DNA from: Bryoerythrophyllum caledonicum | Lineage: Eukaryota; Streptophyta; Bryopsida; Pottiales; Pottiaceae | Length of the DNA: 64,000 nt | NCBI GenBank assembly: GCA_963971425.1 | Contig: OZ020514.1 | Span: 23,719,406-23,783,405 of the forward strand | Reading direction: 5' to 3' | In this document: positions 17,061-61,896 of the stretch, in pieces | Position numbering within the stretch: position 1 is the stretch's first letter | Layout: each line of letters starts with the position of its first letter | The notes under the pieces: generated by a model | What the model saw: the letters and a program-made list of their open reading frames with translations, nothing else | Databases searched by the model: none | What the model was told of the DNA's origin: nothing | Translations under genes and position numbers: made by a program

Positions 17061-17229
17061 CAGCCTCAGACTCAGTAGGTTTTTTTTTGGATGTGTTTTC
17101 ATGCAGGAGTCAGATCCATACGCATTTCGATGTACTTTACAAGGAGTGTATATTTTTGTAAATACAATGTTATCATAATTCGAAGAATTGTTTAACGATT
17201 CATTTTCTTCAATTGTTTCTCAGATTGGA

Positions 17230-19962: not shown

Positions 19963-19987
19963 TGTCTCATTTTATTGAATATAGTGT
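19963..19987. repeat. Terminal repeat of element A
   Basis: A 25-bp sequence beginning TGTCTCATTTTATTGAATAT matches the end of element B (57630-57656) with two differences. The matching opposite end of element A was not found, consistent with 5' truncation. Confidence 0.7.
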
Positions 19988-31052: not shown

Positions 31053-32356
31053 ATAGATTTAGAATTAGGAGCAGCTTAGTGATCGAGGTTAGGAAGCGAT
31101 TAACGATGGGGCTCAGAGTTGCACCCGGCTACTTAACCCAGGAACTAAGGCATTTTGTAAATTTCCGGACTTCAGCGATATTTCCAGAGGTCCGGAATCC
31201 GGACCCGGGAATTTCGGATCTGAGATTCAATTTTCCGGATTTTCTGGGATAAGTCCCTGACTTTTAGAGATGAGATCCTCCGAATTTCTTGTGGATAGGA
31301 TAAGGCTAAGATTAGGAAACTTAGTTAGTACTTAGTAGATGAGTGTTAGAAAACTCATCATCTTGTTTTTCCTTACATTGAATATATTTTTGGATCTATT
31401 ACTAGAACTGCTACCTAGTTCGTGTGACAAAAAATGTTATCATTGTGAGGTACAGGATCCGTTGTGGTAGTACTTGTTGTAGAGAAGTTCTTTTGAAGTG
31501 AGTGGTATTTGACCTTACTTGAGAGTGAGCCGGTTGGGATCTTCATCGAGAGAAAGCCCGGAAGAGCAGGAGGTGTATTGCAGAGGTGTTCCTGGTAACC
31601 TCCAGGGTCCGGAAGAAGCCAGGAGGGGAAGAGATGTATTGGAGAGGTGTTCCTGGTAGTCTGTAGGGCACGGAAGAATCCGTGTGAACCCGGATTCTGG
31701 TCGAGGCCGGAGTTTACCCCCATGATAGGAAAAAGCCCGTTAGGAAAGTCTAGAAGGAGTCCTCTCCAGTAAACTGTGCCACTTTCTCCGGAGAATTACA
31801 ACAGAGCTACCGGAACGTTGTTGTAGTCCGGACTTGTCTCTACATGACCGCGTTCGGAAGGCCATCCGGATGTTGTGAGAGTATAGGTCTAGTAACAACA
31901 ATCAATCACCGGTTAGGAGAGTAGGGAGAGTGGTTGTCCGGTCACTAAAAGTTCCGGGGCAGTGGGTGTCTAGCCACTTAAAGTTATAAGGCAGTGGGGA
32001 ATCCGGCCACTTACACAAAACAAGATCAGTGGCCTTCCAGTCACTCGTTTTAACCTTCCGGAAGCTTCTCTGAGGAGGAATAGAGATAAATCAAACTACC
32101 CTCCGATTGTCTGGAAACTAGTTTTGGAAACCTCTGTATACCTTCTGGAAGCTAGCTCCGGGAGTCTTTGTATAAATTCCGGAATCCGGAAGTAAATAGA
32201 ATAGCTAGCCTAAGTAATTGATACTTTAATTGATATTGGATATTCTGAAAAGATCGATAGATCTCTATGGGAACAAATCCGGAGTGGTTTACTTTGGAAG
32301 CATTTAATGACGATTGAGTGCATTCCGGAGGAATACTAACTCTACCAACTGCAACA
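31053..32356. other. Non-coding 3' region of C1, rich in TCCGGA
   Basis: At least 13 TCCGGA sites (for example near 31162, 31190, 31231, 31607, 31787, 32178, 32277, 32322). Segments around 31900-32050 (GTGGGTGTCTAGCCACTTA) recur inverted at 59460-59560 in C2. Confidence 0.75.
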
Positions 32357-39530: not shown

Positions 39531-39557
39531 AAACACCATATTCATTAAAATGAGACA
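39531..39557. repeat. Left terminal inverted repeat of element B
   Basis: Perfect 27-bp inverted match to 57630-57656, reading inward AAACACCATATTCATTAAAA and then TGAGACA. Confidence 0.85.
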
Positions 39558-39959
39558 AATCGTGAGATTTGAGACTAAAAGCCTATTACTTCGGATACAA
39601 ATATCGTGAAAAGTTATTGCAAACGAAGGCATACATAATGTAACATACGAGAAACATCTCAAATCCAACAATAAAACAACATCATCATTGCGACACTCCA
39701 TAATTGCATCACACAAGACATACTATTAATAGATCATCATGGAGAATATAATTCTACCATAGTCAAAGAGGAGGGAGTACAATGGAAAATAATAATACTA
39801 AAATTTTATTTCCATGACACCGTTTACCAACATAGGTAATCACAAGTTAATTTCTATTTACAGTAGTCTAGGATCTATGCTATCGTCTCTACAACAAAAC
39901 AAGAAAGGACTCCTAAAGCATATAAAATTGTTCCTACTTAGGAGTTCCCTCCTCACTAG

Positions 39960-40680
39960 AAGAAATGGTTGAACCACCTCCTCGTGTCTGGAGAAGCAAG
40001 GCCTCCTGCGCTTTCACTTTCGCATACCCAATCATAATTTCCTTCCTCCAAGAATAGGGTTAATAGTAATCATCCACTTCCGAATAATTCACGGATTTTC
40101 GCAGAGGTGAAAGACGTGATTGATGGCACCGACCACTATCAGCCCCAGAACCACCACCTCCACTCAAGCATAGTGAATTCCGATGAAACTGTGAAGATGC
40201 GGATCTCTTAGAACTAGATTTAAAACTGAGAGATTCAGTATGAAATCTCATTGAACGGGAGGGAGGATTACTAACTCCAACAATACCTTCAGATCTTGAA
40301 CTAGAAAGTTGCCTCCGCTTAGCAAGGGTAGCAGAAGGCTCGACAGGAATAAACGAAGGCGGAATTATCAAATTGGAAGAGATAGGCTTAGACTCCTTCA
40401 CCTCGTTTACATCAATTGCACCATTAACATAGAGCTGCCGTTTAGGAGTGCAATTGCCAACAGGCTCTACAGAAGCACACATCCGCTTGAGAGGGCGAAA
40501 GAGATGCCACACAAGGAATTCCGGCCCTCCACTCACGAGGGCTATCAACAACACCATCATCGACCTTCTGTGTAGAAAAGTCCATGATAGCAGAGGCAGC
40601 ATCGGTTGCAGTGCACATAAGAAACGGCTTTGAATGGTGGGATTGGGAAAAACCTCCAGGAAGCAACCCAGAGTACTCAG
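39960..40680 (-). pseudogene. Element B leftward gene: C-terminal exon
   Basis: Aligns with 18518-19266 of element A: PFLMCTATDAASAIMDFSTQKVDDGVVDS (about 40660-40570), KRMC...NCTPKRQLYV, a Ser-rich region, and PYSWRKEIMIGYAKVKAQEALLL (about 40055-39985). A frameshift near 40510 and a TAA at about 40058-40060 break it. The segment 40740-40990 upstream is intron. Function unknown. Confidence 0.7.
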
Positions 40681-41116
40681 AAAACGAGCCACAATTGGAA
40701 AGCGATTTACTACGATCACTCCTACATAGAGGGGGGATGGTAGCCTTCACAACGTGCAAAAGACACACGAGATAAAAGAAGCGATGAGTTAACATAACAA
40801 CACTCACAACAATCAAACGCATGCTCGATCCGAGGATAAATATGAAAGCCCAAAGGAATACAGTATACCTTGAATCCATAATAAAAACAATACGCTCGAC
40901 CAGAGGATAAACAATAATATTGAAAACAATGATAAATCCTAGAACCGACCGAAAGATAAATAACACCACATAGAAAACGAAAAACACGAGACAATGCCAA
41001 TAAATTACAAAATTTTTTGTTGAAGTTGTAAAATATTTATATATTCAAAATATAAGAGGTTGTTTACAATGTTGAAACTAAATGCCTACTGTATTACAAA
41101 ATAGAAGCCGATGAAA

Positions 41117-42110
41117 CTATGAAGCCGACAAAGTAGAACCATGTGGAATTTCATAGACAAAACCAACGTTCTTGTTTGAGAGCACCATCCCATCTACAAT
41201 ATATTTCATGAAAGGACTATTAGGCGCCAATAGTGGAACCCCTATGCGATTGTTATTAACATAATCATGTAATTGCCCAACAGGGCACTCGGAAACCAGA
41301 CGTCGCAGCCAAGGTACAAGTTCCTGAGTAAGGAACTGGTCATCACAAGCCGCATGTCTCCACGGAAGAAAAAAGATGGCATTTCCCATATGATTACAAA
41401 TGCTCTTCTTTGGGTTGTCGTTGATGAGAAGGGTGTTGTCCGATTCTAGGACCATCGACTCAAGTTGTTGCCTAAATAAAGTTGATGACACAGTTTTCAA
41501 AAAGATCATCTTGTTCGAATTATTCTGATCCATCAAGAACTTATTGGGCAAGGTTTCAATTCTATCACAGCTCTCCTGACCAAGAACCAGAGCTAGAGAA
41601 GGCATGTCCGAAAAAAGATACTTCGCAATTTCAACCACAGTGGACTTCTTCATGGAGCTCCAGACGACAATAGAGTTCGTTATGTTTCGGATGTCTGCCA
41701 GAAACGCACAAATTCCAGGGCGAGTATATACCGCTTTCGGACCTATGTACGTAGAGACGGTGCAAGAATACGCTGCCTGACTCCCTGAGCCTCTAGACAA
41801 CCCAGGGGCATGCTTTGTCTCGCAAAGGATGCCATTAATATCCAGAACAATATTAAGCCACTTGTGTGGCCGCCGGTTGGGGACAACGGAAAACTCCTCC
41901 GCAAACAGTTCTGGGACAGCACGAACACACACTAAAGTCAATGGAAATTACCTGATGAAATGCACATTGAGCAATATGCAAAGGAAGTGTCACAGATTGC
42001 ATCAATTCTCCCCCATATAGCGACTTCTATAAATCATTCCCAATCCGAGGCTTCAATGCAAGAGGTCGATGAACAATATCATCCATTCTCATCTGAGAAA
42101 ACAATTGAAG
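41117..42110 (-). pseudogene. Element B leftward gene: FCP1/SCP-like HAD domain
   Basis: 41941-41117 is open for 274 aa. It carries LNIVLDINGILC (HAD motif I, second Asp replaced by Asn), IVVWSSMKKS (motif II region), DNTLLINDNPKKS (motif III, with Asn where element A has Asp-Asp) and NAIFFLPW. The preceding exon (about 42110-41957, MDDIVHRPLALK) lies after a TTTTCTCAG acceptor and matches element A exon for exon. It holds one in-frame TAG. FCP1/SCP enzymes dephosphorylate Ser/Thr residues, for example on the RNA polymerase II tail. The substituted acid suggests this one binds rather than catalyses, but that is inference. Confidence 0.75.
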
Positions 42111-42249
42111 AAAACAGAATTGTTAAACAATTTGATAAATTATAAGCAAATGCTTTTACAAGTATGTACACTCCGCCTAATGTACATTAAAACTCATATG
42201 GATTCGATGCCTGCGGTCCAACAAACTTATATAAGACCTATTGAGGACT

Positions 42250-43930
42250 ATGAGTAGCCTTTCAAAAAATACACGGCTGCAGCTCGTACAATAGCCTGAA
42301 AAAATGGAAAAAAAGAGCTAGCCAACCTGGTCCGAATCAGACGCTTCGTTTCCAGGTCCATCAGGTGACGGCTCGTAATCCACTCGATCCTCCTCCACCG
42401 TACTGACATCCATGGCCACCACAGGAATGTCGACAACGCGGGCCTCATCGTCGCACTCCTCAGACTATTGAAGGGGAGCAGGGAGTGGAAGCGGGTTCTA
42501 GTGTAGGTAGACACCCGGCGTATCCTCGGGTCGAGGATACTCCATAGGAGGGGTTCATCTTGGAGAGGGCACCTCAAAGGGAGCTAACGCAGGTGCTTCC
42601 CCAGGAAGTGATTGCTGGTGATCAGCAGAGGAAGCTTTGAGAACAAGAACAAACGACTCCCTCTGAGGTAATCTAGCCAAAGGTTGCAGGGGAGTAGAGA
42701 GCCCTGAACCCTAAGTTATCTTCGACACGAGGATAACTCGTGTTCACAAGCACCTCAGAGGGAGGAGGACCAGATGATGTTGCCCCCAAAATTACAGGGC
42801 TCTTCACGTACATCTAGGACAGGTCTGCCTTCACTTGAAGCTGAAGCTCAGCCCTGATAGTCGCCTCGATCCGCGCCTTCTCCAAAGCAAACTCCATCCT
42901 CTGCTTTTCAAGAGCAGCCTCCATCTCTGCCTGCCTGCGCTTGGACTCTTCCAAGCGATCCAACATATCCTGCTTTTCCTTCTCCTCCATTAGGCGTTTG
43001 TACGTCAGATCATAGATGTTGATAAAAATCACCACCAGGTTCGTACTTCACAACCTTTTTAGGGGGCGGGGCTTCTCCAGCAGCCGTGACAAAGAAGTCG
43101 GAAGCCTCAATTATAGTCGGTTTCAAAGGATGTTTAGCTACAGGAGTTTTAACATTCAATGGGCCGGCCACTGGAGGTCTTGGTCCTTTATCGTCACTGT
43201 CTGAAAGCAAAATGATGGCAATATCCCGCTTCGTGCCCCCTTCAGCTAGTGGCCCCTCCTCAGATGGAGGTGCTAAAACAGCGGAGGCGTTTCCTTGAAG
43301 ACTAGGAATATCAGAGGAAGGGACCTCATTGGGGAGCACCGCAACGTCCACTCTAGAGGATGATGGCACCGGTAATTTGCCTTCATCACTAGCAGGATGA
43401 GAAGATGGCCCTGCCGACACGGGTCCAAGAGTCAAGAGGTTCACACCAATATTACTTCCATAAGTATCCAATTCCGGAGTATCCTCGTCTTGAGCTTCCG
43501 GGGGAGTCGGCGGAAGAGGAGATCTATGCGAAAGTGGACGGTCGGCATCCACCGCAGGTTCTTCGTGGATGATGACTGAATCCTGACAGATTCTAGGAGG
43601 AACATCCGAAGCTGCCATGGCTCGAGGTCGATGAATGGCAGCTTTGGTTTGAGAGGTTGAGGCCGTTGCAACTGCAGTCTCCGAAGTCCTCTGTGCAGAA
43701 CTTGTGCAAGCGGCAGCGGTCCTTGAGGGCCTGCGATCTAAAGTGTTGAGTGTTGGTGCGGATTCGGGAGCATCGGAATCCGGCGGCAGGGGACGACTAA
43801 CATACACACAATCCTTATGGAGGAAGTCATTTTATGTCATACTTCTCAATTTTTTTCGCATTGTGTTCGTATAAATTGCGATAGTCCTTGTCCACGAGAC
43901 TGTAAAATGACGTTCCGAACATCTGCAAAA
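42250..43930 (-). pseudogene. Element B leftward gene: linker, coiled coil and YPRxED region
   Basis: After a TTTTGCAG acceptor near 43923 the exon continues the methyltransferase-like part (FYSLVDKDYRNLYEHN). It then runs through a Ser/Pro/Thr-rich linker (43807-43010) with IAIILLSDSDD and VKYEPGGDFYQH, and a coiled coil (42990-42830, ESKRRQAEMEAALEKQR). A region follows where palindromes at 42717-42735 and 42521-42539 are read as YPRVED and YPRPED. It closes with DRVDYEPSPD near 42365. Frame breaks near 43833 and 43020, and stops near 42814, 42680 and 42555. Confidence 0.7.
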
Positions 43931-44149
43931 GACAAGACAAAACTAATGAGTTAAACTCGATACCAATAGAAAATAGAAATGGAGAGGCAGGCATGAGAGT
44001 TATCCTCGACACGAGGATAAACACTTACTAATGGAATCATGAAAAGGCAAGATACAGAGCAACCAAATACAGAACAATGTGAATGGGAGATTCATCGGGT
44101 TTATCCTCGACCCGAGGATAAACTAAGTAATGAAGGGGATCAATTACCT

Positions 44150-45510
44150 TACTTGCCAGCACCAGCTTGGAGCCACAGTAGACCCCGAAAACTCTGCTCA
44201 TGGGCTTGCTGAAGGCTGATAGGAGCTCAAGGTAGAACTCCATCCGCAACTCGTAGTCGTGAACAGCGAAGCATGCCTCCAAATACTTGTTTTTCTCGAT
44301 GTAGTATGGAGTATCCGCGGCAGAGTAATTTAGATCAACCTTCTTCAGTAGCGCAAGAGAATCGGGATGGTCGTCCCCTATAAGGAACAACAGGTATACC
44401 TCAGTACACTTCGACCTCGATGTTCCTAAGTTCAGTCGCTCGTTTGCGGATGGCATGTACCTTGACTGAAGGCACACATATTTCGACATCCTCCTCTCCG
44501 CATACTTTTCAGCTTGCACCGCTCGCTGCTTCGAAGAGATTATCCATCCAAACAATCGGAGAGTTTAGAGTGGGTTTGCTTCTCTGCGTCTTCAAGGTCT
44601 TCAAAAACTCCGAGAAGTATGGCTCATCAGATGAGTCTTCTTTGGAAGACCACCCGGGGACCTGTCGAAGGTCAAGGAGACCAAGGGACCACTCTCTGTC
44701 CTCTGCAGACGGATCAAAATATTCGGAGAACTCCATTTTCTCTCCATCAAAATCGCAAAGCTTGGTTGGTCCAACAACGGGGTTGATGTGGCTCTTCACG
44801 TACAAAAACTTCCGATAGAATGGAAACACGTTCGGAAACTTCTCCACCAACTCAGATGCTCGTTTAAGTTTCCCAGCATTTGTGAGCCTCATGCAGAAGA
44901 ACTCCTTGTCAGGCTAGACAAGGAGCATATTGTACGTTGCAAAAGACACAGAGTGTTCTTGCTTCCACACCTTCCACACCGCGTCGTTTGTGGACCCATC
45001 TCGCATCAAAAACTTCAAGGAAGGATCAATTGCGATCAATTCCTGAAGGTCAGTGCGCTTCCTCTTCCGGCGATCTGCCCACTCCTCGTAGTGATAGCAC
45101 GACCCATGAACAACGCTTGTCCGCCGGAGCGTGACTTTCGGATACCTATTTGGGCCTTCACTGTCAACCAGATAGGTGAATAGGTCCCGTAAGTCCTTGT
45201 CAGAGAGGTGGCCCAATCTCTTGAAAAATTCACGATGGATGTGGGAGGCTCTGAAATTTTTCTCCTCATTATACATGACCATCGTGTCTGGGTTGATGAT
45301 CTTGCCTTTCGTGCGCTTTTTGAGAAAATCTTCCGAGAGCTTGAAAATGTCATTAGGCAATGTGATCACCTTGATTTCATTCGTGATATCTGATGACTTG
45401 TTCACCTGCTTCCCTTCCTTCGTGGGGTCGATGTTTTGGAAGCGGTTGACAACGAGTTTGGAGAATAACTGCAATTCAGAAAACCCAGGCATGTCAAATA
45501 ACTAAACAAT
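44150..45510 (-). pseudogene. Element B leftward gene: central region with DNA-methyltransferase-like motif
   Basis: Acceptor TTGTTTAG near 45506, then 45492-44914 and 44892-44509 in one frame joined by a single TAG (44914-44916), then 44530-44150 after a frameshift. The last part has FYLELLSAFSKPMSRVFGVYCGSKLVLASK. In layout this matches the segment before and including the AdoMet-binding motif I of beta-class N6-adenine/N4-cytosine DNA methyltransferases (ELL..FS.PGD.VLDPF.GSGT). The exon ends at a GTAATT donor and resumes at 43923. The GSGT core is altered to GSKL, so activity is doubtful. The 45492-44914 part is a novel, Lys-rich domain. A palindrome sits in the adjoining introns (45573, 44102, 44001). 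Confidence 0.55.
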
Positions 45511-45594
45511 ATCAATGAAAATAAAGAAGACATGCAGGAAGGATAAAATGGACGTTGTTTAGTATCAAGTATTATCCTCGACTCGAGGATAATT

Positions 45595-46992
45595 CTAGAG
45601 ACGGAAGCTCACCGAGTATTTCTCCTGGTCAAAAATTGTGGCATTGCCGCGAGTTGAGCCCTCTCCTTGCTGGTAACTCGGTCGTCCTGAGTTCAGCCAA
45701 ATTCTTCTGCAACTCAAGATCTGATTTCCCCATGTCGGTTGAGCATGGTCCAGGTAGTTGGTGTTGTTGTAGAATTTGGAAATCCTCTGCAACTTCAGAG
45801 GATCTATTGACCAAACTACATACGCATCCCAACGATGCAAAACATTCTTTCAATTCTACCCGCACTTCTCGACGTTTTGCAGACGCTTGGAGGCCTCCAC
45901 TCTATGTTGTCCATTGATAAGCATGAACTTGCCCTTTTTGATAACGTCCCATGATGTAGGCTGCCGCTGAAGAGGCTCACCATCCTCATCGACTGGGCAA
46001 ACACAGATCTTCTGGCGTTGACCAATTTCGCCAAGTTGCACGAGGAAGTCCATGGTGCTTAACACGATTCCCTCCTCTATTCCCCAAATGACGTACTAGG
46101 CTTTCGCTACGACGCACTGCTCGATTCCAACTCCATATGTTGAACTATCGAAGTGGAAGCAGCCCTTGCATTCCTCCCAAAACAGGCGTTGTGATTCAGT
46201 GACCACCTCAAAATCCACCTGCGGATCGTTACGGGCTGTGTTTGGAGTCGCAGCCTGCATTATGGTCGAGGTGGAGCTTCCACCAGCCATGGACTTTCTT
46301 TTCTTTGAGGAGGGCTCTCCAGCCGTTGCAGTCGGTGTCGACGATCTTCTTGGCGGAGCACGGCTGGAAGTTTGAGGTGCAGATGAACCCGATGGATTGG
46401 TTGCATCAACACCAAGAGCGCAAGGTCGACGACGTGCAATGGCTTCGACAGAAACCGACCGAGTTTCGAATGTCGAAAGGAGTTTATGGATTCGAACTAA
46501 TCGCTTGTTGACCTTCACAGCATCATCGTTTGTCCAGGGCAAGTACCCTTTAAATGCCTCTTTTAGCGATCCTTGCCCGTTTCAAACTACACAGTCGAGC
46601 AACTCCGAGAAGTCGAATTGCCCGTAATGTAAACCTACTTTGACGACAATGGAGTGGCAGTGGAGAAGATCAGCTCCGGCATCATCAAAAGCTTGAACTC
46701 CGAGCACAATATACTCCTTCTGTTGCTGCTCGACAAACGTCACTCTCTCGTTTCGGTTCAGAAGCACATACATGACATTGTCATTGACTTTAATCGTAAT
46801 CTGCACAAACTTCCCGGATTTAGAGAACGACCAATTTCGCACTACATCTTGAAACGCCCACAGTGTGCCATAGTTTTCCACCATGTCGTCGATAAAGGGG
46901 GACAAATTGAACGGATTTTTGAACCTCTCAATAAAATATGCCTCCGCTATATAATCGTAGTCGTCCACAATATCTATTCGGTCACTGGCCAT
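45595..46992 (-). pseudogene. Element B leftward gene: N-terminal region and ParB-like domain
   Basis: The start ATG at 46992-46990 follows a TTTTGCAG acceptor directly, so translation begins at the first base of an exon after a leader intron. One frame runs from there to 45600 with only isolated stops: TGA 46584-46582, TAG 46098-46096 and two near 45865. Residues 1-140 are unrecognised. 46500-46250 is Ser/Pro/Arg-rich with a KKRKS basic patch. At about 45960-45880 lies WDVIKKGKFMLINGQHRVEASKR, which matches the VVDGQHRLEAA core of the ParB/sulfiredoxin fold. WDAYVVWSID follows. In bacteria and phages this fold is often coupled to DNA methyltransferases, as appears to be the case here. The exon ends at GTGAGC near 45612. 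Confidence 0.6.
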
Positions 46993-48410
46993 CTGCAAAA
47001 TGCAACACCACATGGATATTAGAAATCATTATGTGGCTTATCCTCAAGTCGAGGATAGGAATTCTTATTCATGACAAATATTATTAGATTTCGAGTCCTG
47101 GTATCCTCAAGTCCAGGATAACATCAAATGTAAATGGTCAATTGATATGGATTCTTGAATTTTTTATCCTCGAGTCGAAGATACATTTTTCTTCCGGCGT
47201 TGATTGTATCGTGATTTAGAGGCTGTTATCCTCGACTCGAGGATAAACATGGAATCAGAATGGTATTTTTTGTGATGCTAGGTATCGACATGTAACGGGC
47301 AAATATATATTTCACATACAATTTCATTGACTGCGTACAATCAAGCATGATTTTTGGTCCAATTTATCGTTGAATTTCAACCAGTTTATCCTCGGCTCGA
47401 GGATACTGTACTTCTTGACATGGTTTTCTTCTTGTATTTATTCTCGGGTCAATGATAAATTGATTGAAATTCAACAATAAAATGGACGAGAAATCATCAA
47501 TGAACCATGGCAACAAGTTTATCCTCGGTTCGAAGTTATCGCTTTTTTATTACCAACTACAGTTCATTGCAATAAAAACACAGACAAACAAGCAAACAAA
47601 CAAACAAACAAATTAGCAATACAAACTCACAAACGATGGTGTCAGGCACTTCTCCACTCAAGCACATATACAATGTTATAGACAGAAAATCAGATGGAGC
47701 TTGAAACGCTCAATGTAGAATTGAGAAAGTTATCATTAACTTACTTAGAGTGACTGCAAAAAAAACAACAGTAAGTTCTGAATGTGATTGCAGTTGCCGT
47801 GCACAATCGATGTGTGGGGAAGCTTAATTAAATTAGGGTTTTGTTCACGACAAAGCCTCAGAAAACCCTTGCACACCGACAATCGAAACCCTTGCTGAGA
47901 TAGAAACCCTAGCTAAGACCGTCTAAATCTCCAAAACCTAAACAGTTGAAAAACTTTGCAAATCACTACCAAAACCCTCGCTTCAGTGAAACTAAATCGA
48001 GAACTTTCAAACCCTAAGCGTTGAAAATCACAAACACACCTCACACACCTCAAATCCTAAGCGTTGACAATTACAAAAAACACCTCACAACTAACACACC
48101 TCAAACACGAACACACATCAAACCCTAAGCGCTGATAGCCACAAACACACCACTTAAACAAACCTCACACAAACAATCACATACACACCTCACACACACG
48201 CTCTCACACACCGTACACACAATCACACACACCTCACACACTCACACACACACGCGCTCATCTACCGCACACACTCTCAGACACACCTCACACATTCACG
48301 CACAAGCGAACAACTACAATGACAAAACCCTCACATACACGCTAACAAAGAGGGGAAGCGAGCGAAGAGAGAGGGAGAGAAGAGAGGAAAAGGGTATCCT
48401 GGAAAAGAGC

Positions 48411-48507
<97 letters not shown>

Positions 48508-48600
48508 GTGTCACGCCCTTCTTCACTCTTGAAAAAGTGAAGGGATTGGCAGCTCTTCAACTTTTTATCCTCCTTTCGAGACCAAACCAAAACTAATTTT
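46993..48600 (-). promoter_or_regulatory. Leader intron with palindromes and (CT)n-rich promoter region of the leftward gene
   Basis: 46993-47545 holds seven palindrome copies (47039, 47102, 47165, 47227, 47387, and degenerate at 47439 and 47520). 48000-48330 is CA-rich and 48412-48503 is an uninterrupted (GA)46, that is (CT)n on the coding strand, as often found in plant 5' leaders. The exact transcription start cannot be read. Confidence 0.5.
48412..48503. repeat. (GA)46 microsatellite
   Basis: 92 bp of perfect GA dinucleotide. The open frames through it are low-complexity artefacts. Confidence 0.98.
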
Positions 48601-48603
48601 AAA

Positions 48604-51600
48604 GCGACACGATAGATGAATGTCCAATTATTTTTAATTTAGAAACTATATCGAAATGACGCAATGCTTCAGTTTATTTTTCAGTTAATGAATGTTCGTG
48701 AATTGGAATGAATATGGGACGTTTTCATCTGTCAGTTTAATTGTACTTGGAATGATTTGAAAACTACTAACTTTGGCATACTCTTGCATGATGAAAATGT
48801 TTTCTAAATTAGTTTCTTTGGGAAGTTCATAAAAAATTTACTTGATATAAACGTATTTAGAATTTTTTAATTTTTGAAATCATCGTTAATAATATTAATT
48901 GTTCATTACTATTGTAAATTTGGAAATTTCAAATCCAATTTTTTTTATATCAGTAACCTTGTAAACATTTATTAGAGTCATTGTTCATCAAATAAGGACT
49001 CTTTGAGTGGATCTATATAAAACTACATTTATATGTCTTTTTTCGTTTCGATATGTGTTAATTTCATGCTCTAAATTGTAAGTTTGTAATAATTTTTCAA
49101 AGTTGTCTACAAGTTGCTTTTCAAATTTAAAGTTGCAATTGTCAATTAAAAATTTCTTACAACTTGTAATACACAATACAAACATACCAAACCAATGAAA
49201 TTTTATTTTAGTCGTTCTTAAAGAAAATTACATGTATTTGACGTACTATAGTTTTATATTGGCAATCCTATGAAACACAATAAGACTTAAGTCACAAGAC
49301 AAAAAAGACTTAAAGAATTACAAACACCATGATCCATGAATAGTTTTCAAATTCACATCATATTTTAAATTTATGATCATTTATTTAAGTCTAATCTTTT
49401 TAATCCAGGTTAAGTTTGTTTGCGTTATATACTTTAGAAGAGGTTTACATTTCCTTAATTTTTTTCTATTTTAGGGCTCTTTGAGATGAATATTCTATGT
49501 TTTAAAGTTTGAATGAATGAAAAGTTAAAGAATTATAAACTTAGTTCAAAGACTTTGAGATAATTTTCATATAGTCTCTTCAAAAATTGTTATTTAACGC
49601 AAACTTGTTATGATTTTACAGTGTCTCCATTGTTTGAGATTAATTAAGCATTTAGCATTTGTACTTTGATGACTCTCATTTACTTCAAGTAAGTTTTGAT
49701 GTCAACTATCTCCTGGCTTATCTACCTTTGTAGAACCACTTAACGTGTTTAGAATACTTCAATATTACTTAACCCCAATAAAACTTCTTGGTCAATTTCA
49801 CACCAAAATCGCTTCTAAACTGTTGATTACAGTACAATGAGTAACGAAGGAAACAAATACTTGTATTTCCAAATTTTACCGTATGATTTCAAAAAATCAT
49901 TACCAAATACTCTAATTACAAAACTTCATTGACATTGACCGCATGGATTGAAAGATTTCTTCTCTACATTCAGTGCAGTCTTTTTTTTTTCTCATTTTAG
50001 TGGGATCGCCACTGTGGCTGCAGAGGCCAGGGAACTGTAGCACTTCTGGCTTTCTCCTCAATCCAAACGAAACTAAATTTTCTCCATAAATATTCGTTTT
50101 GAAGATTTCATCTCTATAAACATAGATTTGTACATCCTTCTTGGCGATAAGATGGAGCCCCCGTTGTTCATTAGTGGCAATATGGCGACATAGCAACGAC
50201 CATTGATGGAATTCTGGCGATGTGAAATCACAAATTTCCCCAAATTTTGGGAATATTCTATTTTTAGACATTTCTCCCTCTATTGGCTATTTTACGCCAA
50301 AAAAAAGGGGGCTGATTCAGTGGATCAAAAAAGTTCTTTGATTCCACTTGTTGTTAAATTTTTGCACTATTTATGGGATTTTAAATGCATTACCATCATG
50401 TTTAGCATGATTCTAGTTTCTTATTATGTGTGAATAATCTAAATGTCAATAGAAACTTCTATGAAGAATTTAGAGCTATGCGGAGTCTGTATTTTTTACT
50501 TTGAGTGGTTCTAACTTTTGAACCACAAATCCAAGAAACATAATTAAAACACCTCCACAAACCTTTGACTAAGGAAAATGGAGTATAAAAGTTTAAGACA
50601 TAAATATAGATTTTTTGAATCACGAGTATTTGCTCAAACTCAAGAAATCTCCTCCAAGGAGATTTTGGTCTTTAGGGGTTAAGTATAGATTTCCTAGAAG
50701 AGCTAGAACAAGCTACAAAGTTTAATTTCATCTAATATTTTATAAAAACATTTCATTCTAGTTTTTATAAAAGTATTATGAAATATACATTTTTAAAAAC
50801 ATGGAATGATTTAACAACAATTGGTTGTTTTTAAAATCAAGTTTATAACAATATGATATTCAGGATTATTGATATCATTTTATAGGTTCCTTTCTTGGTA
50901 TAGAAAAGAGTACAATGTAAGCTTGTGTTTGTAATAACTTCATTTGTTTTAAAAATTTGCATGTGATATTTTGCTTCTCTATAATTTCTCGTTGTTTCAC
51001 ATTTAATTTTTCCATTGATTGATCATTCGATTTATCAAATTGTTTGGTGTTCTTTTATACCATTCTTCTGAAGATATATTGTAGAGCCTGCTTGGTTTAG
51101 ATTCTACAACAATTTCAACCTTGGACGTTTAAAAAATATTTTAAATTGTATTCAAGATTTTTTTTGTTTAAAAACAGATAAATATTATTTTGAATTTTCC
51201 TTATTACCTTATTTAAGGTTTGACTTATTTTAAAAGATTGTGAACAAAATTAATCTTTTTTCCTCTTCTTCGTCAACTTTGAAGCACAAATATGTGTGTG
51301 ACATAAGTTCGGTGAACATGGGCTTAGCGGTGGATCAAATAAACACTTTATTCACGTTGCCTTTTGAATTAGAGTTCTTCTTCTTCTTGTGTGTGACAAA
51401 AAACATTCATCAACTTACTTAAATATAATCAAAAGTTGATTAAAAATTTGATTTTTTATCAATGAAACAAAGAAAGCCTTAATGAATATACAACTTTTTT
51501 TTAAAACCAAATTAAATTTTCTTCAATTCATATCTGAAAAGAATACTAAAACAAATTATATAGGTTAAAAATTTTAATATTCTAAGAGATATTTTCTTGA

Positions 51601-51850
51601 ACTCGATTCTCATTTTATAAGGCTTATTTTTATAAAAAAATCAATTTTTTAAAAACCAATTTAGCATATTTTTGTTAATTTTTATTACATTTTTACATAT
51701 GAAACCAAATATGACTTTCAGTTTTTCATTCATTAGAAAATCCAATTTTGTCAAAACGAATCTCATTTTGTCATATTTGAGTTGGTCACATTCCAAAATT
51801 GAAGTGACTCGACAACTTAAAAAGGTCACCATAAAAGATGTGACAAAAAT
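48604..51850. other. Central AT-rich spacer of element B
   Basis: About 3.2 kb separating the two divergent promoters. It is very AT-rich. One minus-strand frame at 49912-50271 (119 aa) carries CSHSGDP and CTECREE but no family could be named. No palindrome copies were found here, in contrast to both flanks. Confidence 0.5.
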
Positions 51851-51856
51851 ACATTG

Positions 51857-52052
51857 TTTTCCCGCCCCAAAATGCAGCCGTTGGAAAAAGTCTTTCAAGT
51901 TTTCCGCCCACCTCCGTTTTTTGTGCACCGAAGTCCATCACGACATTTTGACTTTCCCCTGGAAATACTCATTTCGAACTCTTCCCTCTCTGAAGCTCTC
52001 TGTGCCTCGCCTCCGCTTCCACTTCTGTGCTTCAGCTCTTGCCTCTATTCAG
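51857..52052 (+). promoter_or_regulatory. Putative promoter/first leader exon of the rightward gene, with E2F-like site
   Basis: TTTTCCCGCC at 51857-51866 fits the E2F consensus and TTTTCCGCC follows near 51899. A pyrimidine-rich GC-balanced stretch then ends CTATTCA at a GTAAGA donor (about 52052). The intron to about 53060 holds six palindromes. This mirrors the leftward gene. Inferred from composition and motifs only. Confidence 0.35.
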
Positions 52053-52378
52053 TAAGATACTGAACTGATTTTCATTGTGCCAGGTCCTTTTTTGGGACAC
52101 AAATGTTTTGGATAGTTTTTTAGGGCACGAGTGTAAGTGTGGTTGTATTTCTTATGTGGTTGTATTTCTTGCACGTTGGTTGAAATCATTTTCATTTTCT
52201 ATTTGCCTGTGTCGCACAGGTCATTTCAATGTTTTCTCCTCTGCTTTCTCTGCAAGAGTACATGTCTCCCCATTGCACATTATTCAGTGATATTGACCAC
52301 TTTAGCGGTTCTTGTTCATCTCTAAACTAAATCTCTATCTGTGATACTCCGCATATTACGGAATCACTGCAGCATTGT

Positions 52379-52964
52379 TATCCTCGGGTCGTGGATAACC
52401 TAAATTCACATAATTGAATCAAATCCATCACTGATGGGACATTACCAATGAGGTTTATCCTCGACTCGAGAATAGAACTATTGAATCTTGGTTCATTCGA
52501 GTAATGTATTGTACTGTATGAAAAAGGCGATTGAAATTGAAAAAACAATTATCCTCGACTCGAGGATAACCGATGTTGATTCGTTGGAATTCGATGAAAC
52601 TACAATGAGTAAATCATGAATTCATCAGCTGAATCAGGGTTCAATGTCACGTCGGACTTTGCACAATATGGGTGGTATATCCTACCTGTGTGTTATCCTC
52701 GAGTCGAGGATATCAAAAGTATGATATATAATAACTAGATCACTTAATTTATGATGGTTATTCTCGAGTGGAGGATAACTGACTTCGAGTTAAATGTCAT
52801 CTGAGATGCATGTATACACAACAAATTGTTGTGTATATTTGGTGTATTCTCTCCGGGTTTGAATCATCACTGTGATGTTATGCCTAACTATGGTTTTCGT
52901 TATATGATCTCCTAATTCAGTGTTGAAATATTCAATATCTGGAATTATCCTCGTATCGAGGATA
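52379..52964. repeat. Palindrome cluster in the rightward leader intron
   Basis: 19-bp palindromes at 52379-52397, 52456-52474, 52550-52568 (perfect TATCCTCGACTCGAGGATA), 52695-52713 (perfect TATCCTCGAGTCGAGGATA), 52759-52777 and 52946-52964, spaced about 65-185 bp. Confidence 0.9.
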
Positions 52965-53072
52965 AACATATCTTATTTGTGTCTATCTCCTCTGATAAGA
53001 GCCGTCCTATACAAATATGTCGATTTTTTTGGATAACTAACCCTCTGTCCTTTTCATTGTGATATCTTGAAG

Positions 53073-55859
53073 ATGTAAGAACGCTCAAATGATGGTGTAG
53101 TCCGAGTTCCACCTACCTTACCTCCAGGTGTTGCTACATATGAGGGCATTCCTCGTGCATCGTGGTTGTCAAAGCGCCTTATCCTTCGAAACACATCTGG
53201 GGCTGATGTTGCAATTGGACTTTGCCGGAGTGTTGATTCTGGATTTGTTCCTAAAACTGGTGGTCGGCCACTTGTAGATGATCATGTTGCTATTCTAATC
53301 ATTGAATGCTTAGACGAGAATGAAATTCCATTGAATTGGATATTTGCCCTCCGAGCATGGCCAAGTCGACAGGTCTTTCTTTGTAATGTGAGTTTGTATG
53401 ACCAAGAGCAAACTAGCATTTTACAATGCAGCTCTTAAAGTATTTCCTCGCGGACCTGGAGTAGGCGTTCGACATTACGAAACCACTCGTCAGAGGATAG
53501 AGAGTCCTTCCCCACCAAAGAAGGAAGTACTTCTTTCTTCACAATCGATCAACTCTGATGCGAGCACCGTCTGTTGTCCAAGAAATTGTACTCAACGATT
53601 TCCATGGTGTTCAATTTCTGTACTTCGCTCCCAAGTTTACCGTGACATTGGAGGTGTTTTCTTTCAGAAACATGTTTGGCTTAATGTACATAGGCAGATC
53701 CACATGGATTCCAATGGAAACCATGTGGTGACGCTTGATAGAATTGATGTATGCCAAAATGCATGGTGTAGTATCATGGGGGTTAGCCGAGCCACATTCT
53801 ACCGGTACAAACGAGAGGCAAAGGATGGGATGCGGGCAGGGGCACACGGCAATACTGGTTCAAAGAAGCCTCGGACTCATATCCTAAAGGCAATTGCTAC
53901 TCTGCATGATATACTTGATGATGTTGCCGATCACAGTCCTAATAAGACAACTACACTTGGCACTAGGGAGAAGGTGGTCTCCAAACACCTTCCTGCCTAT
54001 TTTCAATGGAGTAGAGTGTTGCCCAAAGTGAATGAGGTGAATTCAAGATTTGGCCTCAAACCAATATCTTTGTCTGGTCTTAGTCGAATTCAAAGCTTTG
54101 AATTTGAACAATACTCTACAAAGAAGCCTGGTGACAACTTTGCCCGCTGCGGAAGATGCGACCAACTCAAGCAATTAAAGGAGGCTTGTAGACGTGGGTC
54201 CTCCTCATACAAAATGTGGGAAGTCAAATTGCAGTTACATCAGACCTCTCAACAGACTCATCGTATTTTATATTATGGGAACCGGAAGAATTCGGAAGAA
54301 AAACCTAACGAGGTTGTGTGCATCATCCATGATAAAATGGATCATAGCAAAACCGCATCTCCTCATTTTTCTCACAAGAATTAAGCGACGGAGTCCTTCA
54401 TGAAACTCCTTGTGGCCGTAACTGGAATGATTGCGCATGGACATGGAGATGTTTGTTATGCCCATTATAGTCTTGACATCTTCCCCACCGACTCAAACCA
54501 CACTGTTGGATCCATTGCGAAGATACTTCGGGACTTAGAGAGTCCACCGGTGTATTCTTCTTGTGAATTATTTACGGGAGGCAGAGCTTCTGCTCTCTCT
54601 CAGGCTGTGCTTGCGAATGCTAACGTGTGTCTTGGATCCCTTGCTGCTCCACGGGTTGAACCTATTCCTGCGAAACAATTACCACCAATTCTCCAAATGC
54701 AGTTAGATAATGCCACAGGGGACAATAAAAATAGATTTGTGTTTGCTTTTTTTTCCGTCCTCGTTCATATGGGTATTTTCCGTGAAGTGTATGTCAACTT
54801 CGTACTTGTTGGTCATACTCACGAGGATATTGACGCAATGTTTGGGAGATGGAGTTCCAAACTCAAGTCAAATAGCTATCCATTGATTCCACTCTTGATG
54901 AAATCATTCATGGATGCTGAGAAAATGCCAGTTATTCCACACCTCATTGTAGAGGTGCCCGATTTCAAGGGCTTTTTAGAAGGATATTTGTGCATTGGCA
55001 AAGAGGCCCTTACGGGTCACACGAAGGGCCAACAATTCAAGTTTTACAAGGGCTCAGATGGATTGCCAAAGATGCAATACAAAATTCTTTGTACAGATAG
55101 GGATTGGTTGCCTGAGGAGGATGGAGGAATCCAGCTGCGGAAAGTGACAGAAGATGGTAGGCCAATTTGCCTCGTGGACAGCCGATTCCTCTCATTCCGT
55201 GACGTCATGAGATTTATGATGAGGTCCTGAAGGGTATATCTAGGTTTCTAAGTCTTTGGGAATCTATGGCTAACGAGGATCTCTCGAGTGAATATAGGAG
55301 GAAGAACGAGCATATTATGTACTATTGGAGAGGTGTTAAGGCTTCCTTCGAGGTGCCTTTGGAAGAATCGCCTCTCCTACGAGAGGGATTCTGGCCACTA
55401 TCTAGATATGCTCCATCCATGGTGGATGAATATGAGATTGATGGGTCGTTGAGGGAGGAGTAAGCAGAGGACCCTCCATTCATTGGACAACGACATCATT
55501 GTACTCCTCCATCGTTTTAGGTTGGTAGAGATGTGTACGAGGGCTATGTACTTGCGGTGCGTTCTGCTGATGGAGATTTGCGCCCATTTTGGATTGCCTT
55601 GGCATTGACTAATCCTCATCCAGATCGTGAACATTCTCATGAGATTAAAGTGCAATACTTCAAACCTGCATCCCAGCGTCATGTGGACTTGGAAACATAC
55701 CAAGGGTGGGATTCTAATCATGGGAATAATTGGGTAGAAGAGACTGAATCTGAACCAATCTGGGTGTATACAGATTATATTTTAACGGCTTGGAAGCCTA
55801 GGTTGCGTGGAAACACAAGCTCCTCTAGATTAAAATTCCTAAATCACATGTGGACATAA
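53073..55859 (+). pseudogene. DUF7869-like protein, probable transposase of element B
   Basis: ATG at 53073 is followed by a TAA codon. The frame then continues (RVPPTLPPGVATYEGIP, 53166-53438), shifts once near 53390-53430, and is open to 55230 apart from TAA 54382-54384. Features in order are a helix-turn-helix-like GVSRATFYRYKREA (53785), a Cys pair (CGRCDQLK, 54150) and VVCIIHDKMDHSK (54320). Next are GMIAHGHGD, FPTDSNHTVGSIAKIL, LPPILQMQLDNATGDNKNRFVF (54690), VNFVLVGHTHEDIDAMFGRWS (54800) and LMKSFMD. The tail continues in another frame from about 55232 to 55859 (YEGYVLAVR, FWIALALT) with TAA and TAG stops. The spaced D, D and E/D motifs fit an RNase-H-like DDE transposase core. Family name from memory; transposase role is inference. 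Confidence 0.7.
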
Positions 55860-57629
55860 TCAAGGCATCTTTAGCTGAATTATAGATTTCAACGGAGTTT
55901 GTGGTTTTTGGGGACTCGAGTTATTTTACCAATATAAAATAGGGGGGGTGCATGTTCTTTTTTTAATTTTTGTTCTTTTGTATTGGATATTCTATTAAGT
56001 ATGTAGTGAACTTGTATCTATAGGATGGAATTGTAGACTTTGAATGTGCGCATAGCATATTTGTAGATAGAATTAGATTAGTGTTTGTAGTTACATGTAG
56101 TGATGTATTGTGTTGCTTTCAGTATTATACAACAGCGGCGGGAATTTCGTCTCATCATTGATGTATAAATGGCGGTCTACATTGTGAGTGTCATTAATTG
56201 TACATTTATCCTTGATGCATCGATACTTTCTATTGATAGTAGTTATTGAATGGATTGCTACAATACATGCTAACTTTTCAACGCTAGGTATTTCAACGAC
56301 CTTGTTGTTTGGAAATAGTATAATCTCTTGAAATTGGTAATTATTTCTCTTTCAAATGAAAATGTATGCATTCTAGGTGGAATTTAAATGAGTGTATATG
56401 TGTATTTTAGTCCAATTTTAAACCCTACTTTGAGGGGTTATCAAATTTATTGCCTCTTCTATCTTCCACAGTAATTTTATTCTTGCAATGATTTTTTTTG
56501 GATGTATTAGTTTTTTTTAGGTAACTAGCAGTTGGCGCTTGCTTTGCATCGCATTAGTTCAACCATTTTAATGTAGTTTTTATATCACAAAATATTTAAA
56601 AAAGAAAGGTAACAACAATCTACATAAAATATAAATATGTCTTTGAAACCTATGCATGAATTTTAATAATGTAATAGAATATAATTGAAAAAAATAAATT
56701 AGGTTTTAGGTTTTTGCATTTTAACATGGAATTTTAAAAATGTTATGAACGTCAAATTTGTAATCAAGAGTTTCAAATTTATTTTGGATAAGCACAAATT
56801 GCAACACACAAATGCAAATTTCATATACTCTTAAACTCAACTTGGAATTACAATCTGAATTTCACACACCCGCAAACTCAATTTCCAATTACGATCTCAA
56901 TTTCACACACCCTCAATCACAATTTGCAATTACAATCTCAAAACTTGCAATCTCACCTCAAAACTTCTAATTTCAATCTCCACAACTCGAATATGCAATT
57001 TTGCAACTCCAACTTTGTATGCCAACCTCCAAGATCACAACTCCAACTTCACAACTTTTTCACTCCAAGTTTGCAACTCATAATTTACAATTCACTCTTT
57101 TAGTACTTAACTCAAAAAATATTTTGAACGTCAAATTTGTAATCAAGAGCACAAATTGCAACACACAAATGCAAATTTGTTACACCCAAAAACCCAAGCT
57201 AATGCTTTGCAATGCATTAGACCAACCATTTTAATGTAGTTTTTATATTACAAACTATATTTTTAAAAAAGTAACATGATTCAGTGCGCGGTGGGCTGCG
57301 CAATTAACTGCGCAGTTGACTGCATCGTTCCTATAGTTCACTGCTCGGTTGACTGCACGATTGATCACTACGTGGTTCACTGCACGGATTATGATATTAG
57401 TAGTATGATATGCTCCATATCTTGGTACATTTTTTATAATCTATTACCTTTACATACACAATTGAATATGATATTCAATTTCATTGAAGATGAATTCAAC
57501 AATCCATGATACGGCTAGATTATTTAGCATTTTCAATTGAGATTGAGTCTCAATTTAATACATAGTCTCAAATTAATGAAATTATAAATTGTCTAAAAAA
57601 AGACACCATGATAAATTGAGACTCCGAAA
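55860..57629. repeat. AT-rich right arm of element B with internal duplications
   Basis: No gene. CATTTTAATGTAGTTTTTAT recurs at about 56567 and 57228, and GAACGTCAAATTTGTAATCA at about 56747 and 57125. AATTTGCAATTACAATCTC-type units repeat between 56800 and 57080. At 57276-57390 there is a short array of GTTGACTGCA/GTTCACTGC units. AGTCTCA motifs lie next to the terminal repeat. Confidence 0.65.
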
Positions 57630-57656
57630 TGTCTCATTTTAATGAATATGGTGTTT
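57630..57656. repeat. Right terminal inverted repeat of element B
   Basis: Exact reverse complement of 39531-39557. A near-identical end (two differences in 25 bp) is found at 19963-19987. Confidence 0.85.
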
Positions 57657-59105: not shown

Positions 59106-61896
59106 CTCGTGTTGCAGTTTGTAGAGACTGTATTCCTCCGGAATGCACCTAATTGTCACTAAATGCTTCCAAAGTAACCGCTTCGGTTTCGTTCCCACAG
59201 TGACCTAATGTTCTTTTCCAAATATTCCCAATATCCAAACTACCGCAACAATCGTTCAAGGGTTAGCTATGCTCTTTACTTACGTATTATGGATCCGGAT
59301 CCCTCCGGTGTCCGGATTTTCTACAACGGCTTCTGGAAATAGTTTCCAGAAGTCCGGAGGGTAGTTTGATTTGTCTCTATTCCTCCTAAGAGAGTCTTTT
59401 GGAGTTTTTAAGCGAGTGTTCAAAGTCCACTAATCATGTTTTGTGTAAGCGACTCGATTTCCCAGTGCCTTGTGACTTAAAGTGGCTAGACACCCACTGC
59501 CCGGAACTTATAGTGACCGAACACCACTCTCCCTACTCTGTTAACCGGTGATTGGATTGTTGTTGCTAGACTTAGACTCTTACGACACCCGGAGGGCCTT
59601 CCGGAGGCGGTCACATAAAGTCAAGTCCTGACTACAACGACATTCCGATAAGTACGATTGTAATTCTCTAGAGCGGATGTTACCATACGCCAAGGGTATT
59701 CCGTCTAGACCTACGCATAAGGCTTTTTCCTATCTTGGGGAAGAATTTCGGCCTTGACCGGAATCCAGGTTAATACGGATACTTCCGTGTCCTAGAGATT
59801 ACCAGGAACTCCTCTGCAGTTCATTTCTTTCCCTCCTGGCTACTTCCGGACCTTGGAGTCTACCAGGCACACCTCTGCAATAGCCCTCCAGCTCTCCCAG
59901 GCAATCTCTTAACACGGATCCTGACCGGTTTTCCCTCTAGCGAACAAGATTACCACTCCACCTTGGAAAGAATCTTCACACAATCACACCTACAAGAATG
60001 GATCTATTTCGCACAATGTCTACATCCACACCAAAGTTACAAGGAAGCAAGTCTAGCAAGAAGGTTCGAAGTGTCTTCAGAGTGAGAAGAAGAAGATAAA
60101 AGGTTTTTCCCCAAAACCTCACTACTAGGTACTAACTAAGTCCCTTCTAAACTTAGCCTTCCTCCTGGCTGCACCTATTGGAAATCCGCTAGATCTTATC
60201 TAAAAGATCCGATAAATCCGGAAAAGTCCGAGATCGGATCTCAGATTCTATAATCTTGGAACAGTTTCCGGCTCCGGATTTCCTATTCTAACTACAAAAC
60301 TGGCAGTCGACTCCGTCAGCAGCTGGGTGCACTTGGAGCCCCATCGTTAATCGCTGCTGGTCCGAAATCTAAACCCAAAAAGAATGCTACAGCTAAAGTA
60401 ACCTAAGTCGGAGCACCTCGTGCCCGGTTTCTCCCACTTTTTTGCAAGGGGGAGATCTCCATCAGAGCCCGGTGCTTGTCCTTGGCCTTCTCCGCTGTTG
60501 CCGGCAAAATGTTTGTCTTCCGAGTCGACGGACCGGCTGCTGGAAAAATCCTAGTCACCGGAGATCAGGAATCCGAAGGTGGAGGTGGTTATTCCGGTGA
60601 ATCTTCCGGAATTGGCGGTGTTGGCTGCTCCAGTTCGGAAGTAGTGTTAGTCTCCCGGACCAAGTCCCTGTAGCTTCCGGAGGGACTCCCTGATCCGGGC
60701 GCTAGCCTCCGGGATACTTACTTGGAGGGTGCCTGGGGGTCGACTTCGACCGGAGGATCTAGTAGGCGCATGGTCGGTGGCGTCAGCACATCCTGGAGGT
60801 TCTTTAATATCTCACCCGTACTAGGGTTGGGAGATACAATACCTTCCGCTGGTGTCCGAGGTGATGGAATATCAAGGAACTCCGAATTCGCCGAGGTACC
60901 CGGAGCTGGAGTTGACTTGGGCTGTGGTGGTTCTGGAAGGGCCGTGGTCCATTTCGGGGTCGTAACGTCCTCCAGTACTAGGGTTGTCTGGTCTTCCAGA
61001 ACCACCTGGGTAATGTTGTTGACCAGGAGCCGCATCTGCTCCCAGGTATGGCCCATCTTCTCCGCTTGATCCAAGAGAAACCGGATGATGTTGGCCCTGG
61101 TCACCTTCTTCTCCTTCTCCACCAGTTTGGTGAAGAGTTGGCTCTGATTGACCACGTCTACCGGAAACTCTAGGGCCTTCCGAATCTCCGTCACGGCAGC
61201 CGCGGATGCATTGGCCTTTGCCTCCGCCTGTTTCCTGGCCACCACCGCCAGCTCTGCCTCCTAGCGAGCATGCGCTACCTTCTTCTCCATTTCCATGTTG
61301 GCCTTGTACATGGTGGAGATTTGAAGGTGCAACGCCTTCGTGTCACCCTCCCTTCTCCGGAGATCCTCCACTCAGTTGATAGCGTCTTCCAGCTGGCTGA
61401 CCCCTAGACTCCGGAAGACCTGCGCGACACCGATTGTGACAATAAAGTTGGTCTCCTTGAGGGCGGCCACTCTCCAGCCGACCTCGCGCAGGAGATCATC
61501 CATCTCCTTCAGCTAAGCCTTGGCATCTTCCGGATCAACCTTCTTCCTCTTTTGGATGGCTTCCGCTGAAGGCCCAGACTCGTCTTCTCCGAATGATGCG
61601 GATGGGCTGTGGATGTCCGGACTCTCCGGCACTGGCTCCTTCCGTTGAGGCCTCTTCTGAGCCCTCCGATCTCCATCTGGAGTATCCGCGGTTGATGCTT
61701 CTGGCACGGCCTCCGTTGCCCCTCCGGATTCTTCCTCTGACTCTTCACCTCCGTACTTCTGGAGGCTGAGTACTTCGTCAAACAGTCTCACCTCCGTCGG
61801 AGTGAGTTGTTGGTGGTGACAGTAGAGGTGCACCACATAGGAGGCTAGTGGGGTTGCCGATTTCTTCACCTTCTGGAGGTTGGTGTGAGCCCCCAA
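59106..61896 (-). mobile_element. Element C2, 5'-truncated relative of C1
   Basis: Inverted relative to C1. The end (GGAATAC, CTAC, AACTGCAACA on the minus strand) and about 1.3 kb of TCCGGA-rich non-coding DNA match 31053-32356. Coding parts are 61896-61513 (YVVHLYCHHQQLTPTE), frame-continuous to 61245-60718 (coiled coil QSQLFTKLVEKEKKVTRANIIRFL), with several single stops (about 61514, 61370, 61261). The match to C1 stops near 61890, inside the coding region. Confidence 0.7.

Follow-up and report, generated by a model that had tools for sequence, protein, structure and literature searches.

The 64,000-nucleotide stretch of the Bryoerythrophyllum caledonicum genome analyzed here (the window) raises the question of why a moss DNA transposon should carry, beside the gene for its likely transposase, a second gene for a multidomain protein, and how the product of that cargo gene might act on the element. 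An earlier note had read the locus as an element bounded by terminal inverted repeats, whose cargo protein, with ParB, methyltransferase, and HAD parts, could bind and mark element DNA while a DUF7869-like protein moves it. Our results bear on each of these parts and reveal a feature that the earlier note had overlooked, a private palindromic dyad that is repeated within the element and gives the best hint of what the cargo may do.

Ends of the element and its copies in the host genome

The sequence from 39532 to 57655 (AACACC...GGTGTT) is a decayed copy of a family of DNA transposons of approximately 18 to 24 kb with terminal inverted repeats and 4-bp target duplications, as seen from its inverted ends and from comparison with the family. 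Self-comparison of the window gave inverted ends at 39531 to 39562 and 57625 to 57656 (32 nucleotides, 94% complementary), and the 27-bp perfect stretch reported before was recovered. The element is indeed bounded by these repeats, but the limits first proposed, 39531 and 57656, were one base out at each end. Comparison of copies indicates that family members begin with AACACC or AACCCC and end with GGTGTT, which places the true ends at 39532 (AACACC) and 57655 (GGTGTT) and the terminal inverted repeats at 39532 to 39562 (forward strand) and 57625 to 57655 (reverse strand). The window copy is flanked by TTTA and TTTC, an imperfect 4-bp duplication. The subterminal motifs are present as described, with TGAGACT at 39570 and 57617 and AGTCTCA at 57546 and 57564.

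A truncated second copy, previously placed at 15.7 to 20 kb, is found in reverse orientation at about 16.5 to 19.99 kb (approximately 16563 to 19989, reverse strand; 77 to 90% alike) and holds two dyads, at 16563 and 16722. The window copy of the element contains an 883-bp insertion (56525 to 57407) that is absent at that place from the divergent copy described below and from two older copies (c5 and c7); pieces of it occur elsewhere, inverted, in the divergent copy. Outside the element, the window harbors GC-rich 21-bp repeats (ACGCGCCCGGCCCTCCAG-like) at 1336 to 1747, 4927 to 5251, 10047 to 10166, 11551 to 11670, and 15366 to 15587, and a direct duplication of about 1.05 kb (98% identical) at 6019 to 7718. 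Inverted related blocks at 31500 to 32356 and 59110 to 59958, 75 to 94% alike, flank the element and are possibly pieces of one repeat family.

The host genome (437 Mb in 894 contigs) was searched for further copies, with 40 copies scored in each end search as the best of 303 and 1519 first-look candidates. A divergent copy at 64.75 to 64.77 Mb of contig C1 (21,372 bp) runs from AACCCC to GGTGTT and has TGAT on both sides; when the flanks of this one copy were joined minus one TGAT, a gypsy-like reading ran unbroken across the junction and had two stops in other places. Matching the lists of ends gave identical 4-bp flanks at 18 of 20 further paired ends, the exceptions being C1:14.73 and C7:11.32, and the independent pairs number 17 because two copies on C14 have common flanks. 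These pairs belong to a subfamily, mostly about 21 kb long, that we regard as young because its best end matches are 98 to 100% identical. Within this subfamily the ends of genome copies coincide, as the earlier note had expected, and the mismatch of ends that it had feared was absent. Among seven older copies (c2 to c8) fetched for comparison, c5 (on C12) is the sole one with a properly placed right end, and it has TACT on both sides; c3 and c4 contain an inverted right end, c6 contains a second left end, and no right end of c2, c7, or c8 was found in the stretch examined.

A large eukaryotic DNA transposon family, as first proposed, is thus borne out by the presence of both genes within common ends and by many copies in the host genome. 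A host gene cluster lying between chance repeats was ruled out by the target duplications and the copies, and a virus or provirus was rejected after nothing viral was found in ten ORF pieces scanned. Two further observations concern the distribution and decay of the family. Of the places listed, 79 of 150 for the cargo and 65 of 138 for the transposase are on contig C1, which makes up 15% of the genome (65 Mb) and is possibly a sex chromosome or a large heterochromatic region. A 6.4-kb derivative (C9:476405-482840) has lost 15 kb from its interior and otherwise matches the 64.75-Mb element at 99% identity; it has kept an intact AAAC duplication and three dyads within 3 mismatches.

The probable transposase gene and the cargo gene

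The transposase gene (53079 to 55859, forward strand), recognized from ORFs, Pfam, and an intact copy, is broken in the window into several frames with an in-frame stop. It had been described, together with the cargo gene, as one of two divergent multi-exon units. This holds for the left gene, which has several exons, but the right gene is a single exon in the intact copy, with one stop-to-stop frame of 949 codons, and looks exon-like in the window because the window copy is broken. The product matches Pfam PF25273 (DUF7869) in the window (E value of 5.9e-43; 147.1 bits versus a gathering score of 26) and in the intact copy (154.9 bits). A stop-to-stop frame of at least 937 codons without internal stop is present in 28 of the 138 transposase places listed, which are the best of 3498 first-look candidates, and the others have shorter frames or stops inside. 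Homologs from Ceratodon purpureus and Physcomitrium patens are 51% and 49% identical, respectively. The conserved blocks, HDKMD, MDNA..DNKNR, and a GHTHEDID-type block, could correspond to a D-D-E/D triad, and profile searches gave weak HTH matches. Both the PF25273 match and the conserved blocks favor the earlier view of this protein as the mover, and we infer that it is a transposase acting on the terminal repeats. No paper naming DUF7869 was found in the literature searched, and the titles listed there included none on an element of this kind.

Elements of the Sola superfamily of DNA transposons, reportedly described by Bao et al. in 2009, are said to have a 4-bp target duplication, terminal inverted repeats, and conserved acidic residues. 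By that description, the element presented here resembles them in its 4-bp duplication, its terminal inverted repeats, its conserved acidic residues, and its moss host. We know of no cargo gene in Sola. Sola1 is listed for Physcomitrella in a table in the available part of PMC9033089, and the available part of a study of moss transposon expression (PMC7466625) mentions neither Sola nor TIR.

The cargo gene lies on the reverse strand. Exon 1 (approximately 45613 to 46992; broken), delimited by ORFs and a donor, encodes the N-terminal part, with Lys/Arg runs and an I[N/D]GQHS domain. Exon 2 (approximately 44148 to 45468; broken) encodes a helical part and a methyltransferase-like domain without DPPY, and exon 3 (approximately 42814 to 43922) the end of the methyltransferase-like fold, a Ser/Pro-rich stretch, and a coiled coil. 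Further exons encode a NIF/HAD phosphatase-like domain, with DxNGxL replacing DxDxT (41117 to 41947), and the C-terminal part (last exon, 40060 to 40746), which is 78 to 82% identical at the amino acid level to that of the 64.75-Mb copy. In the latter copy, exons 1 and 2 are open (460 and 441 codons), and their joining to exon 3 preserves the frame; after these come the coiled coil, the NIF/HAD exon, and the last exon. The join of exons 2 and 3 is also open in two distant relatives, L041 (860 codons) and L042 (848 codons).

The HAD part named in the earlier note is upheld by matches to Pfam NIF in the window (E value of 1.1e-8) and in two relatives (4.9e-11 and 2.4e-14). Active NIF/HAD phosphatases carry DxDx[T/V]; this catalytic motif is absent from all three sequences seen, which read DINGIL in the window and the 64.75-Mb copy and DLNGIL in L042. 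The methyltransferase assignment is tentative. The motif order is methyltransferase-like, with the DPPY place first and then F/Y-x-G-x-K, which we take to be the beta-class order, and PF01555 was the sole, weak Pfam match of the spliced exons 2 and 3 of L042 (E value of 0.0017; 18.8 bits, below the cutoff of 26.7). The catalytic DPPY itself, however, is absent from 15 of 15 sequences (L041 and L042 among them), its place reading D-L-R, D-L-S, or D-F-R, and the GxG place reads GSK, GAK, or GTK where seen. P0038 and P0040 had no Pfam match. The ParB assignment was not borne out: searches of Pfam, NCBIfam, PADLOC, and PDB gave no relevant match, and the likeness comes down to the I[N/D]GQHS motif. 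Profile searches recognized no DNA-binding domain in the cargo protein. PDB profile searches A1, A2, and A6 gave chance-level matches only, search A7 gave arginine methyltransferases (E value of 0.23 over 41 residues), and PHROGs gave nothing useful. A PADLOC match to RTasRmuC (E value of 0.0016, in 1 of 11 sequences) was taken as chance.

No cargo relatives were found in two IMG/VR scans, and among the GTDB species genomes they were confined to three eukaryote-like contigs of one MAG; a bacterial origin of the cargo gene at detectable distance is unsupported in these scans. The three transposon contigs (L040, L041, and L042, from GTDB AVDCRST_MAG81, labelled Synechococcales) contain introns and are probably eukaryotic contamination of the MAG. 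The cargo protein resembles the ParB-methyltransferase proteins of bacteria and phages in its possible GQHS and methyltransferase-like motifs, but its catalytic motifs are changed and IMG/VR gave no relative. Fungal DNA transposons carry TET/JBP dioxygenases, and going by the available part of the source (PMC12730594), they too combine a DNA transposon with an epigenetics-type cargo gene, but they differ in their cargo, transposases, and target duplication lengths, and private dyads are unmentioned there.

The two genes were not seen to occur independently in unrelated contexts, the outcome that the earlier note had named as speaking against its reading. Among the 150 cargo places listed, the best of 1148 first-look candidates, a transposase in divergent order is listed for 81, where about 3 are expected. 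The spacing is 9.5 to 16.3 kb in 78 of these 81 pairs, 4.4 kb in one, and 24.5 kb in two; 8 of the 150 places have a transposase in another order, and 61 have no listed transposase within 30 kb.

The cargo gene is under strong purifying selection. Exons 1 and 2 differ from those of the divergent copy with a pS of 0.69 to 0.78 (saturated) and a pN of 0.12 to 0.22, and comparison with the divergent subfamily gave a dN/dS of 0.05 to 0.09 where computable, the dS of exon 1 being beyond correction, and its dN/dS not computable, in 4 of 7 comparisons. Between the same copies, dS and dN/dS were 0.19 to 0.30 and 0.26 to 0.39 for the HAD exon and 0.11 to 0.56 and 0.13 to 0.38 for the transposase. Since the HAD exon and the transposase are much closer between the same copies than the cargo core is, the elements look like mosaics in which the HAD exon and transposase may have been exchanged more recently than the cargo core.

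A private dyad in the noncoding DNA of the family

Members of the family share a private dyad, located in noncoding DNA upstream of both genes and within the cargo introns. The dyad, TATCCTCG-nnn-CGAGGATA, is palindromic and occurs in 18 to 20 copies in the window element. When up to 3 of 16 positions were allowed to mismatch, 20 dyads were found in the element, versus a mean of 0.08 and a maximum of 1 for 60 half-site-shuffled dyads; with a stricter pattern, the window has 20 matches, of which the truncated copy accounts for 2 and the present copy for 18. When perfect 7-mer dyads were counted de novo, one dominant family emerged, with 10 copies in the element versus a maximum of 1 in 20 shuffles, and the same count found no dyad above 2 copies in the other 41.3 kb of window sequence.

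One cluster lies upstream of the cargo gene (47039 to 47538; 7 sites with up to 3 of 16 positions off) and another upstream of the transposase gene (52379 to 52964; 6 sites). Within the cargo gene, the dyad of intron 1 (45573 to 45591) starts 21 nucleotides after the donor, and one of the two dyads of intron 2 (44001 to 44120) lies 27 nucleotides after the donor. Two dyads are found between exon 3 and the HAD exon (42521 to 42735) and two weak ones between the HAD exon and the last exon (40820 to 40909). None of 99 sites in seven sequences overlaps a conserved coding stretch (such stretches cover 26 to 50% of these sequences); two sites in the 64.75-Mb copy lie in an open frame after exon 3 that may be either coding or noncoding. 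In the whole genome, 385 places match the 21-mer exactly, versus 0 for a reversed control. Of the 50 exact sites listed, 40 are no more than 20 kb away from a listed element feature, although these cover 5.7% of that stretch, and the remaining 10 are away from listed element features.

Between subfamilies, the dyads are 90 to 100% identical in three regions and 72% in a fourth, with flanks at 53 to 73%. The identical dyad columns between the window and the divergent copy were 88 of 96, 55 of 61, 16 of 16, and, in intron 2, 23 of 32, counting columns seen in at least 2 sequences, which favors conservation somewhat; the values for the flanks of the same regions were 713 of 972 (0.73), 191 of 364 (0.53), 128 of 215 (0.60), and 88 of 160 (0.55). 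Within a subfamily, dyads were kept no better than flanks in several comparisons, a pattern that fits the decay of dead copies after insertion and provides no evidence for function. Deviations from the dyad were G>A and C>T in 103 of 161 cases, a pattern of decay suggestive of loss at methylated cytosines. One-sided deviations dominate (149, versus 6 two-sided, of which 3 keep pairing and 3 are unpaired); it is therefore the letters that are kept and not the pairing.

The relatives of the cargo gene in the MAG carry dyads of two types. L040, with 76% cargo identity, has 5 dyads of the window type. L041 (27%) and L042 (26%) have no window-type dyad within 3 mismatches, and L042 has one at 4. 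These two contigs of one MAG harbor a different dyad, TCAGCTCG-nnn-CGAGCTGA, in 6 and 7 perfect copies, respectively, with a different outer half (TCAG) and a common core and layout. It lies upstream of exon 1 in L041 and in introns of both; the L042 contig holds no upstream stretch. The first intron dyad follows the donors of introns 1 and 2 by 24 to 26 nucleotides in L041 and L042 and by 21 to 28 nucleotides in the window and the 64.75-Mb copy; in L040, a dyad follows the intron 1 donor by 21 nucleotides. A peptide that the TATCC-type dyad would encode was found in 10 of 43 cargo homolog ORFs, versus 0.36 expected from shuffles, near the end of the ORF, where translation runs on into the intron, and in 2 of 87 transposase homologs. 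Because these matches are peptides, we infer the DNA word in the homologs from them.

Candidate readers of the dyads

The simplest reading is that a dimeric protein reads the dyads, and since the dyad differs between cargo clades, the cargo protein is the likelier reader. We give about even weight to a model in which a protein of the element, the cargo protein or some other, binds the dyads of its own element and either opposes silencing or promotes expression, as VANC does, with unrelated parts. A dimer of the cargo protein (less likely of the transposase) would bind the dyads, with the methyltransferase-like and Pol II CTD-phosphatase-like domains of the cargo protein serving mainly as adaptors. 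The protein would relieve silencing or recruit transcription on its own element family only, and the DUF7869 transposase would act on the terminal repeats.

Anti-silencing is proposed because the layout of the dyads matches that of the VANC motifs. VANC-mediated anti-silencing is described for the VANDAL elements of Arabidopsis, with motifs that differ between related element families, in the available parts of PMC5735166 and PMC10398659. According to the former, the motifs of VANC21 are located in the region upstream of VANA21 and within introns of both VANB21 and VANC21; those of VANC6 are different. As far as these sources describe them, VANDAL21 and VANDAL6 share with the moss element a second gene encoded by the element itself and short private motifs that precede the transposase gene and also occur in introns, but the moss motif is a dispersed 19-bp dyad, whereas the VANC motif consists of tandem direct repeats of an 8- to 9-bp word. 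The moss element also differs in its DUF7869 transposase and 4-bp target duplication, and anti-silencing is here a proposal by analogy. The VANC homolog domain (DUF1985) was not among the Pfam matches of the cargo exons and relatives scanned. A bolder version, tentative and in our view somewhat doubtful, is that of a private code, in which a large multidomain protein, composed of methyltransferase-like and CTD-phosphatase-like folds deprived of their standard catalytic motifs, would read a family-specific dyad maintained in noncoding DNA and introns of the element, both would co-diverge into separate codes, and anti-silencing would have arisen independently outside the flowering plants.

Other readings draw on the same sites. 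Bacterial operator/repressor pairs are the model for one of them, in which a protein of the element, either the cargo protein or the transposase, uses the dyads as operators and acts as a repressor or autoregulator that limits its own expression and copy number, with no anti-silencing involved. Clusters directly upstream of both genes, a dyad symmetry suited to a dimer, and the weak HTH matches in the transposase are consistent with it, but a simple operator would not need the sites in the cargo introns, which are found with both dyad types, and we consider this reading unlikely, if worth weighing. Intron sites that start 21 to 28 nucleotides after the donors of introns 1 and 2 in the window, the 64.75-Mb copy, L041, and L042, and 21 nucleotides after the intron 1 donor in L040, might instead function at the RNA level, by folding into hairpins close to 5' splice sites and controlling cargo splicing. 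This is very improbable given how few changes are compensatory (3 paired and 3 unpaired versus 149 one-sided), and dyads also cluster upstream of the transposase gene, which is intronless in the intact copy.

The outer part of the dyad, TTATCC/GGATAA, presumably resembles plant I-box/MYB-related half-sites, which raises the possibility that the element has captured the sites of a host transcription factor. Two relatives, however, differ in the outer half (TCAG) and agree in core and layout, and the listed exact sites are mostly near element features; capture of this kind appears improbable. There is likewise little chance that the dyads belong to a ParABS-like or marking system, with a ParB-like protein loading at parS-like dyads and an active methyltransferase marking element DNA. 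The I[N/D]GQHS motif, the methyltransferase-like motif order, and the presence of several dyads per element would agree with such a system, but no profile from Pfam, NCBIfam, PADLOC, or PDB confirms ParB, 15 of 15 sequences have other residues at the DPPY place and, where seen, GSK, GAK, or GTK at the GxG place, and no ParA-like gene was found in the ten ORF pieces scanned.

Taken with the model of a cargo protein that acts on its own dyads, our results suggest that a dyad-rich element recognizes and switches on its own copies. For the DUF7869 family, a transposase function becomes likely, and the two types of dyad would offer matched protein-site pairs for studying how specificity changes. 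Sequence-specific transposon anti-silencing is documented in Arabidopsis VANDALs in the portions of the literature available to us. If the model is true, finding this private-motif layout with an apparently unrelated protein in a moss would point to repeated origins of such anti-silencing.
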